From assembly GCF_029263155.1 (NCBI RefSeq), contig NZ_JAJCYB010000075.1, forward strand, positions 1-64,000: a DNA stretch of 64,000 nt. The letters are read 5' to 3'. The position numbers were made by a program, and so were the translations under genes. The notes beneath the pieces are model-generated. The model was not told the origin of the DNA, searched no databases, and saw only the letters and a list, made by a program, of their open reading frames with translations. Shown here piece after piece: positions 18,373 through 55,751 of the stretch (position 1 is the stretch's first letter; each line of letters starts with the position of its first letter). The stretch comes from Pseudonocardia sp. Its GTDB lineage: Bacteria > Actinomycetota > Actinomycetes > Mycobacteriales > Pseudonocardiaceae.

Positions 18373-19704
18373 GTGCCGACGCCGCCCGAGCCCGGTCCGC
18401 GCGAGGGCGGCACCGCCGATCCCGGCGTCCGGCTGGGGGTAGCCCGGCTCGCCAGGACGCCTGGCTACCGCAGGCTGCTGGGTGTCCGGTTCGCCGCGCA
18501 GTGGGGCGACGGGATGTTCCAGGCCGCGCTCGGCGGGGCGGTGCTGTTCAACCCGGAACGGCAGGCGGACCCGCTGGCCGTCGCCGCCGGTCTCGCGGTG
18601 CTGCTGCTGCCGTACTCGATCATCGGGCCGTTCGCCGGTGCGCTGCTGGACCGGTGGGACCGCCGCCGGGTGCTGCTGTTCGCCAACCTGCTGCGCGCCG
18701 GGCTCGTCGCCGTCGTCGCGGCGGCGGTGTACGCGGGGGTGGCCGGGCCGCCGCTGTTCGTCGCGGCGCTGGCGGTGGCCGGGGTGAGCCGGTTCCTGCT
18801 GGCCGGACTGTCGACGGCGCTGCCGCACGTCGTGCCGCGACGGCACCTCGTCGAGGCCAACACGCTCGCGGTCACCGCCGGTGCCGCGCTGGCGGCGCTG
18901 GGCGGGGCGAGCGCGATCGGGCTGCGGGAGCTACTGGGCGCGGGGGACGCCGGATCGGCCGGGGTCACGCTCGCGGCGGGGATCGGCTCGCTGCTCTCGG
19001 CACTGCTCGCCGCCGGCTTCCGGGCGCACCGGCTCGGACCGGACGGCGCCGACGAGCGCCCCGCGGTACGGGCGGTCGCGCGCGGCTTCGCCGACGGGGC
19101 CCGGGCCACGGCGGCGGCCCCGACGGTGGCCGCGTCCTTCCTGGCGCTCGCCGCGCACCGTCTCGCGTTCGGCGTCACCACGCTCGTGACGCTGCTGCTG
19201 TTCCGCTACACCTTCACCGACCAGGGCGTGCTGCGCGCCGGGTTCGCGGGCCTGGGGGAGGCGGTGGTGCTGGCCGCGGCCGGGCTGGGCACCGCCGCGC
19301 TGGCGACGCCGTGGCTGGTGCGGCGGATCGGCCGCGCGCGCACGGTGCGGATCGCGCTCGCCGTCGCCGCCCTCACCCAGCTCGGTCTGGCCGCGCTGCT
19401 GAGCCTGCCCGCGGTGATGGTGGCCGCGTTCGTGATCGGGCTGGCCGGGCAGGTGGTGAAGCTGTGCACCGACGCCGCCGTACAGGGTGAGGCGGGCGAC
19501 GGGGTGCTGGGCCGGGTGTTCGCGCTCTACGACATCGTGTTCAACGTCGGCTACGTGTTGGCCGTGGCCGCCGCGGCGTTCCTCAGCCCCCCCGACGGCG
19601 ACGCCCCGGGGCTGCTGGCGGCGGCCGCGGCGCTCTACGTGCTGGGCCTGCTGGGCCACGACCAGCAACTGCGCCGCCGGACCCCTCGCCCCTCGTTGCA
19701 GTAA
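18373..19704 (+). CDS. MFS transporter
   Basis: 443 aa with about twelve hydrophobic segments and the cytoplasmic loop LLDRWDRRRVLLFANL (about 93-108) typical of the DHA3-like drug-efflux branch. The substrate is unknown. The last two codons and the TAA stop (RPSLQ end) are supplied by a 55-nt palindromic element, so the original C-terminus was probably altered by its arrival. It converges on pcnA. Confidence 0.85.
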   Translation: MPTPPEPGPREGGTADPGVRLGVARLARTPGYRRLLGVRFAAQWGDGMFQAALGGAVLFNPERQADPLAVAAGLAVLLLPYSIIGPFAGALLDRWDRRRVLLFANLLRAGLVAVVAAAVYAGVAGPPLFVAALAVAGVSRFLLAGLSTALPHVVPRRHLVEANTLAVTAGAALAALGGASAIGLRELLGAGDAGSAGVTLAAGIGSLLSALLAAGFRAHRLGPDGADERPAVRAVARGFADGARATAAAPTVAASFLALAAHRLAFGVTTLVTLLLFRYTFTDQGVLRAGFAGLGEAVVLAAAGLGTAALATPWLVRRIGRARTVRIALAVAALTQLGLAALLSLPAVMVAAFVIGLAGQVVKLCTDAAVQGEAGDGVLGRVFALYDIVFNVGYVLAVAAAAFLSPPDGDAPGLLAAAAALYVLGLLGHDQQLRRRTPRPSLQ

Positions 19705-19750
19705 GGCCACCTTCACGCAACGAGATTGCGTGAAGGTGGCCTTGCTGCAA
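19696..19750. repeat. 55-nt palindromic element, copy 1
   Basis: Two 25-nt arms (19696-19720 and 19726-19750) are complementary except for one U-G pair, around a 5-nt loop. Ends are TTGCAG and CTGCAA. It provides the stop codon of the MFS gene and sits between convergent genes, where it should act as a bidirectional terminator. A second copy of the same length lies inside recF (47737-47791). Confidence 0.9.
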
Positions 19751-19761
19751 TCCGGGCGGGC

Positions 19762-47046: not shown

Positions 47047-48225
47047 GTGCACCTGCGACACCTGGCCGTCACCGACTTCCGGTCCTGGGAGCAGGCCGAG
47101 CTCGACCTGGAACCCGGCGCCACCGTGCTGGTCGGGCCGAACGGGGTCGGCAAGACCAACCTCGTCGAGGCCGCGGGCTACCTCGCCACGCTCGGTTCGC
47201 ACCGGGTCGCCTCCGATGCCCCGCTGATCCGCCGCGGCGCCGAGCGCGCCGTCGTCCGTGGGGCGGTGGTGCACCACGGACGCGAGCTGCACGTCGAGCT
47301 GGAGATCACCGCGGGGCGGGCGAACCGCGCACGGGTGAACCGGGCGCCGGTGTCGCGCCCGCGCGACGTGCTCGGCATCCTGCGCACGGTGCTGTTCGCG
47401 CCCGAGGACCTCGCGCTGGTGCGCGGCGACCCCGGCGAGCGCCGCCGTTTCCTCGACGAGCTGCTGACCATCCGCCACCCCCGCTACGCGGGCGTCCGCT
47501 CGGACTACGACCGGGTGCTCCGGCAACGCTCCGCACTGCTCAAGACCGCGCGGGGCGGCCGGGCCGACCTCTCCACCCTCGACGTCTGGGACGGCCACCT
47601 CGCCCGCACCGGAGCCGCCCTGCTGGCCGGCCGCCTGGAACTGGTGGCGGCGATCGCCGGCCCGGCCGCGGAGGCCTTCGCCGAGGTGGCCCCGACGTCG
47701 GACCCGATCGCCCTGCGGTACCGCTCCTCCGTCGCGTTGCAGGAAGGCCACCTTCACGCAACGACACGGCATGACGGTGGCCTTCCTGCAACGAATGCGG
47801 CGGAGCTGGAGCCGCTGCTGCTCGACGAGCTCGCCCGGGTGCGGCGCCAGGAGGTGGAGCGCGGTGTCTGCCTGGTCGGGCCGCACCGTGACGATCTCGA
47901 CCTGATGCTCGGACCGGGCCCGGCGAAGGGCTACGCAAGCCACGGGGAGTCCTGGGCCATCGCCCTGTCGCTGAGGCTGGCCTCCTACCGTCTGCTGTGC
48001 GCCGACGACGTCGAGCCGGTCCTGATCCTCGACGACGTCTTCGCCGAGCTCGACACCCGCCGCAGGCGCGCGCTCGCCGACGTCGCCCGGCGCGCGGAAC
48101 AGGTGTTGATCACGGCCGCGGTCGACGAGGACGTACCCGAGGGTCTCGCGGGCACGCGCCTCGCGGTGAGCGGCGGATCGGTGGCGCACTCGACGCGAAC
48201 CGGCTCGTCAGGGGCACGGCAGTGA
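47047..48225 (+). CDS. recF: DNA replication/repair protein RecF
   Basis: 392 aa. Walker A GPNGVGKT at 30-37, ABC signature [15 protein letters not shown] and Walker [13 protein letters not shown] are intact, so it is probably active. Residues 231-249 ([19 protein letters not shown]) are encoded by a copy of the 55-nt palindromic element and look foreign to the family. The insertion keeps the frame and lies in a loop region before [25 protein letters not shown] start. Confidence 0.95.
47737..47791. repeat. 55-nt palindromic element, copy 2, within recF
   Basis: The left arm 47737-47761 differs from that of copy 1 (19696-19720) at one position. The right arm 47767-47791 has four mismatches to perfect complementarity. 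Length and loop size (5 nt) equal those of copy 1. It starts on a codon boundary; both flanks read CG, so 55 plus 2 nt equals 19 codons. Confidence 0.88.
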
Positions 48226-51179: not shown

Positions 51180-54239
<3,060 letters not shown>

Positions 54240-55397: not shown

Positions 55398-55471
55398 GGG
55401 CCTATAGCTCAGTTGGTTAGAGCGCGTCGCTGATAACGACGAGGTCGGTGGTTCAAATCCACCTAGGCCCA
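55398..55471 (+). tRNA. tRNA-Ile (GAT)
   Basis: A 74-nt cloverleaf: acceptor GGGCCTA/TAGGCCC, D arm GCTC/GAGC, anticodon stem CGTCG/CGACG with loop CTGATAA (anticodon GAT), T arm GGTGG-TTCAAAT-CCACC, discriminator A. The 3' CCA is not encoded. Confidence 0.97.
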
Positions 55472-55675: not shown

Positions 55676-55751
55676 GGGGACGTAGCTCAATTGGCAGAGC
55701 ACCGCCTTTGCAAGGCGGGGGTTAGGGGTTCGATTCCCCTCGTCTCCACCA
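55676..55751 (+). tRNA. tRNA-Ala (TGC)
   Basis: A cloverleaf of 73 nt plus an encoded CCA: acceptor GGGGACG/CGTCTCC, D arm GCTC/GAGC, anticodon stem CCGCC/GGCGG with loop TTTGCAA (anticodon TGC), T arm AGGGG-TTCGATT-CCCCT. Confidence 0.97.

Follow-up and report, generated by a model that had tools for sequence, protein, structure and literature searches.

A palindrome within recF of a Pseudonocardia genome is probably one copy of a dispersed REP/RPE-like element

Introduction

A long palindrome lies within the recF gene of a Pseudonocardia genome (here G000), and the reading frame runs straight through it. This raises the question of whether the palindrome belongs to RecF itself or is one copy of a repeat that has spread through the genome and has come to be read as protein. 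The locus is part of what we call the window, namely the whole stretch of 64,000 nucleotides that was analysed. As far as the accessible parts of the literature go, palindromes that code for protein are known above all from Rickettsia, and REPs inside genes have been described in several other bacteria (PMC2229807, PMC10969869, PMC3733652). By comparing the locus with other copies of the repeat and with relatives, we arrive at the view, to which we give a probability of about 0.8, that the palindrome in recF is a copy of an element dispersed in Pseudonocardia, REP/RPE-like and made of two 28-nt hairpins placed head to head.

Results

Anatomy of the element in recF

An earlier note on this DNA had described a 55-nt palindrome at 47737-47791, and this description holds, with the symmetry reaching one base further on each side. 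The element thus consists of two inverted 28-nt units around one central base, or 57 nt and 19 codons (Table 1). It codes for its RecF residues from a codon boundary, codon 231 beginning at 47737, and the ATPase motif GPNGVGKT of RecF is intact, both as previously claimed. The left arm was also correctly recognised as a near copy of that of another palindrome in the window, the two differing at one of 28 bases. With the variable base left open, the arm pattern has three matches in the window (two elements) and none in 100 shuffles. The RNA of 47730-47800 folds at -44.9 kcal/mol (z -8.4), and half-units in general fold better than mononucleotide shuffles of themselves (mean -7.1 vs -3.9 kcal/mol). 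The CG on both sides of the element, taken earlier as a sign of target duplication, is indeed present; CG is its own complement, however, and can equally well be read as the end of the palindrome.

Table 1. Coordinates of features in the window
Feature	Position	Strand	Remark
Palindromic element, 57 nt, inside recF	47736..47792	+	RecF residues 231-249
Left half-unit, 28 nt	47736..47763	+	folds alone, -13.0 kcal/mol
Right half-unit, 28 nt	47765..47792	-	inverted; more diverged in the recF copy
recF	47047..48225	+	reading frame open through the element
Second element copy	19695..19751	+	near-perfect palindrome; provides the TAA stop (19702-19704) of the preceding ORF
Transporter-like ORF (our reading of the sequence)	18373..19704	+	ends within the second copy
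Block within gyrA	51579..52124		in frame, 182 codons; mini-intein-like
tRNA gene	55398..55471		Rfam match
tRNA gene	55676..55748		Rfam match

Two further features of the window are listed for completeness. The block in gyrA ends in VSHN before TECRLSP, at what we take to be the intein site of mycobacterial GyrA, and the two tRNA genes are the only Rfam matches in the window.

Spread within the genome and across the family

Genome-wide spread, which the earlier note could only suppose, was borne out by a search of the whole genome for both ends. In G000 we found 39 places at which both arms occur with at most three mismatches at a fixed spacing of 31 nt, and one more at which the second arm is more worn, giving 40 copies. 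Their alignment reads RTTGCAGSAWGGCCACCTTCAYGCAAY, a short centre and then the complement. Unpaired arm matches in this genome are few (a reversed control has four); a worn 65-bp match is common to two of these unpaired arms. Within the genus, 16 of 62 genomes match the arm pattern, between 1 and 63 times each, and G000 is one of the 16. The comparisons below draw on 207 copies from 13 genomes, a set that holds 4 of the 14 copies of G046, 6 of the 7 of G021 and 16 of the 17 of G006. Several of the genomes are drafts or MAGs, G000 itself has a contamination of 5.98%, and G005, G006 and G023 were placed in the genus of the window. Consensus versions are species-specific, which suggests amplification within lineages.

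How far the element reaches depends on the pattern used. A loop-specific exact pattern gave 30 stretches, all of them from Pseudonocardia or Pseudonocardiales records, and with two mismatches it occurred in 3 of 397 genomes of the order (G000, and G179 and G205 with a single odd place apiece), a set that holds only three Pseudonocardia genomes. A plasmid search with a 301-base query returned two matches, both to flanking sequence downstream of the insert. The arm alone has at least one match in 29 of 70 genomes of a family survey and is abundant in other genera (forward/reverse matches 46/40 in G310, 27/30 in G205 and 15/19 in G235), and we thus dropped the idea that the element is genus-specific. 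As arms with other flanks are found in related genera, the arm family itself probably predates the genus. Twenty copies in G310 keep the arm spacing with other flanks, none of them coding (best score 1.3). Palindromes with AAGGCCACCTTCA arms and either other outer flanks or an inverted arm order were seen in G310 (loci L370-L385), G205 (L369), G448 (L387, L388) and G460 (L386), and many of the G310 copies, judged by eye, have stop-codon triplets within about 15 nt.

RecF with and without the insert

RecF was aligned for 30 of the 41 genomes with RecF, namely those that had been given loci. The insert is present in three (G000, G006 and G023) and absent from the other 27, including 22 of 25 Pseudonocardia, and because these 22 congeners are without the element, the insert is, on this alignment, derived. 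The dispersed repeat in recF is accordingly what the earlier note took it for, an in-frame insertion. Between two anchors, the linker measures 37 residues in G000 and G006 and 39 in G023; in the 22 congeners without the repeat it measures 23 residues in 14 and 26 to 32 in the other 8 (the value for G032 is unreliable, its anchor being misplaced). The note had also held that a homologous loop of the same length in RecF without the repeat would speak against insertion. Here the congeners, with 23 to 32 residues against 37, side with the insertion, whereas RecF of G040 (L137, from another family) has a linker of 39 residues and unrelated sequence at the same position, so that length alone is insufficient as proof.

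One expectation did not survive: 55 nt and a 2-nt duplication were to add exactly 19 codons, whereas RecF is, on balance, 14 codons longer than in G005 and G008 (16 for G023), and across the 207 copies no duplication came to light. A gain of 14 or 16 rather than 19 indicates that part of the old linker was lost. A RecF tree from which the linker was left out has the form (G023,(G006,(G000,(G008,G005)))), with weak support (85/77) for the fork that joins G000 to G008 and G005, and it requires a minimum of two changes, for example a gain followed by a loss in G005/G008. The linkers of G008 (L110) and G005 (L111) look like those of outgroups, though the tree nests both genomes among those that bear the insert; the element may have been lost there, or recombination may have replaced the linker. 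Most simply, the element would have entered the linker after YRSS in the ancestor of this five-species group, at the partial expense of the old linker, and RecF probably tolerates it as a surface insert.

Other host genes and the bias in reading frame

For a coding test, codons on both sides of the 207 copies were scored in all frames, the gene calls coming from our own codon scorer. Well-supported ORFs contain 24 of the 207 copies, at 15 sites (Table 2), vs 72% of 828 random positions under the same scoring, so that genes are depleted in copies. Three ORFs (L075, L084, L099) were kept out of the coding class, their best start lying within the element, and the nine of 207 copies with middling scores of 3-8 were assigned to neither class in the analyses of covariation, flanks and gene position. 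Of the 414 strand readings, 389 leave one usable frame open and 399 the other, and the coding copies nevertheless fall mostly into one of the two: 22 of 24 are read as LQxGHLHATxLxEGGLxAT (frame 1), the remaining two belonging to a single site in a GntR/aminotransferase regulator. Counted by site, the bias is 14/15 (p=0.00045). Taking E2 as a single site gives 13/14 (p=0.00086), and the inclusion of two less certain frame-2 cases (L066, L189) brings it to 14/17 (p=0.007). The nine middling-score copies are unbiased (four in frame 1, four in frame 2, one in frame 0). As far as sequence can tell, the host proteins are translated through the element, and selection at the level of the peptide may be what causes the bias. 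At 11 of the 14 frame-1 sites, Pfam matches lie on either side of the insert or run across it.

Table 2. Genes that carry coding copies of the element. Host families are from Pfam; the names NadB, EntE-like, CobG and FAD monooxygenase are our reading.
Host gene	Genomes	Frame
RecF	G000, G006, G023	1
NadB	G000, G005, G023	1
Acyl-CoA carboxylase alpha; EntE-like ligase	G000	1
E2	G000; similar site in G003; different linker in G055	1
HypF	G006, G008	1
SMC hinge	G005, G055	1
O-methyltransferase	G018	1
CobG	G003, G018	1
TPP enzyme; MoeA	G049	1
FAD monooxygenase; CobN	G055	1
GntR/aminotransferase regulator	G023, G055	other

Relatives with and without the element were also found for NadB, acyl-CoA carboxylase alpha, E2, the EntE-like ligase, HypF and the SMC hinge, with worn copies judged by eye. 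NadB has an intact element in G000, G005 and G023, a worn one in G008 and none in G006, G004, G017 and G021; HypF has an intact one in G006 and G008, a worn one in G000 and none in G005. At the SMC hinge, a QxxH...ExG remnant can still be recognised by eye in about 17 of the 30 genomes aligned and at least six are without it, these being the best 30 of 57 matching genomes and hence a sample that leans towards the element of the query. Net gains over element-free relatives amount to 12, 6 and 3 codons in NadB (G000, G005 and G023), 12-15 in the carboxylase, 7-15 in E2, 19 in HypF and 34 in the ligase, and a clean empty site was seen in none of these hosts. Such variation, from 3 to 34 codons, means that native linkers were partly replaced; in most hosts, to judge from the alignments, the 19 codons of the element took the place of native linker.

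Three observations concern single hosts. In the EntE-like gene of G000 (L063), the element is preceded by about 15 residues (PAPSQPAPSRPA and neighbours) that are extra relative to G023 and may stem from a local duplication. In the E2 gene of G003 (L307), the intact element stands after the E3-binding domain, and another element-like peptide, LQQGGHTAIGLEQGHLAGI, degenerate in sequence, precedes that domain. Finally, smc of G000 is split over the ends of contigs C30 and C76 near the hinge site that bears the element in relatives, where the hairpin may have broken the assembly.

Position at the 3' ends of genes

Most copies lie outside genes and close behind them. Among the 174 non-coding copies, 161 could be placed, with 60 between convergent, 88 between tandem and 13 between divergent genes, vs 12, 73 and 43 of 128 background gaps (Fisher p<1e-7 for both contrasts). 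Their median distance to gene 3' ends is 13 nt, and 167 of 208 neighbouring ends lie within 30 nt. From position alone, we infer that the symmetric hairpin is probably itself a transcript 3' end, or part of one, that can be used from either strand.

It is conceivable, if doubtful, that copies are at heart bidirectional terminators kept by selection, dispersed mostly by recombination or conversion between terminators, and only rarely captured by genes. The strong bias to 3' ends and convergent pairs agrees with this, as do the related arms seen in the family's other genera and the 26 sites, accounting for 67 of the 207 copies, that are common to two or more sampled genomes. The arms also covary beyond shuffles at three variable positions; given that species have their own consensus versions, this covariation may reflect subfamilies as much as pairing. 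Against selection for termination stand the 24 copies in ORFs at 15 sites, the 140 of 207 copies at sites unshared among sampled genomes, and the species-specific consensus with its hint of amplification within lineages. Furthermore, a U-run is absent after the conserved hairpin, and REPs elsewhere are described as having the same 3' bias (PMC3733652).

Tests of the mode of spread

A MITE that a DDE transposase cuts and pastes, leaving a short duplication of the target, would account for inverted repeat ends, dispersed copies and a derived insertion in RecF. Over the 207 copies, however, no target duplication was evident at lengths 2-9 and up to ten boundary shifts, and the MITE hallmark is thus missing from this set; the largest z (3.4) falls inside the conserved arms, and identity outside the arms is close to shuffled. 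Net gains that depart from 19 or 20 codons also speak against it, and in the fetched loci no longer parent element sharing these ends was found, the extra arms there proving to be paired or degenerate paired copies. We consider this origin unlikely.

We hold similarly little hope for a REP mobilised, now or in the past, by a RAYT, that is, an IS200/IS605-type tyrosine transposase. Both the head-to-head dimer of short foldable hairpin units and the location behind gene 3' ends, convergent or unidirectional, fit REPs. Yet a search of nine element-rich genomes for PF01797 (IS200-type transposase) had no match; these genomes thus show no RAYT association of the kind known for GTAG-class REPs and lend no support to a RAYT as the present mover, though a transposase since lost may have played a part. 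Only two of the 16 arm-pattern genomes have it (G003 and G021), compared with 3 of 46 without the pattern. The GTAG tag is missing too: the outer 8 nt contain GTAG in 0 and CGTC in 13 of the 207 copies. Of the two labels in the earlier note, MITE- or REP-like, the second in the form of REP/RPE-like fits better, and the first lacks its usual duplication.

Insertion into the loops of older hairpins was also considered and rejected, as the flanks of the 174 non-coding copies are C-rich upstream and G-rich downstream, and not complementary beyond composition; for the 24 coding copies, one of eight flank positions stands out (z 3.2). Least of all could the recF feature be an ordinary variable RecF loop with DNA that is palindromic by chance, a reading to which linkers of varying length among relatives (up to the 39 residues of G040) lend some colour and which near-identical DNA at 40 places of the genome, and in unrelated genes, renders almost untenable.

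Discussion

Our preferred reading remains that of a dispersed REP/RPE-like palindrome, and it can be put as a sequence of steps. The element would have spread by copying; most copies would survive just behind stop codons, and a minority within genes, in loops or interdomain linkers, where they would be read as the conserved 19-residue peptide. A bolder version, which we advance tentatively, is that of a transposase-less hairpin family of the Pseudonocardiaceae that copies itself, perhaps templated by repair or replication, and serves both as a portable bidirectional 3'-end hairpin and as a reusable 19-residue linker module, replacing native linkers and remaining, for instance in SMC, once the palindrome in the DNA has worn away.

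The element occupies 15 intragenic sites, at several of which some congeners have the insert and others do not, and its frame bias can be measured; it offers a natural series of intact, worn and absent states, in hosts that include recF, smc, nadB, hypF and moeA. This series could serve the question of how selfish DNA becomes protein, and also that of how a hairpin without a visible transposase spreads. We found nothing on this repeat in Pseudonocardia in the literature, which is weak evidence of absence as subscription papers lay mostly outside the coverage, and a text search with four 13-mers of the arm gave only matches that were unrelated by title.

The element can be set against three kinds of known systems, as described in the accessible parts of the comparison literature (PMC2229807, PMC10969869, PMC5896051, PMC12306157, PMC3733652). 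Intragenic MITEs, such as QMITE2 of Coxiella (PMC5896051) and the ERIC and Correia elements (PMC2229807), are likewise small inverted-repeat elements that form in-frame fusions; they are longer, however, QMITE2 measuring 150-190 bp with direct repeats of 7-11 nt (PMC5896051), and a comparable frame bias does not appear in the available portions of these texts (PMC5896051, PMC2229807).

The REPs covered by Di Nocera et al. 2013 (PMC3733652) come closer. In the sections at hand, they are head-to-head hairpin dimers, with convergent copies less than 20 bp from both gene ends; many intragenic ones lie in genes for DNA synthesis and repair, where dimers or groups encode 20-30 residues, and a transposase is not known for the CGTC class. 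The Pseudonocardia element shares the head-to-head dimers, the 3'-end and convergent position and the intragenic copies, but as a rule lacks a GTAG or CGTC tag. As tests for both the tag and a RAYT came out negative, we do not file it as a GTAG/CGTC REP, and the main text of that paper nowhere mentions Actinobacteria, Pseudonocardia or recF.

Rickettsia RPEs, compared here by description only, are palindromes that lie in frame within conserved protein genes as well as between genes and add a conserved peptide. The Pseudonocardia element resembles them in this, its 24 coding copies standing in frame in unrelated protein genes, and differs in being 57 nt long and in belonging to high-GC actinobacteria, whereas RPEs measure about 105-150 bp (PMC2229807, PMC10969869); some RPEs are themselves said to match CGTC repeats (PMC3733652). 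We read the element as a new, untagged actinobacterial family of protein-coding palindromes, akin to both REPs and RPEs.
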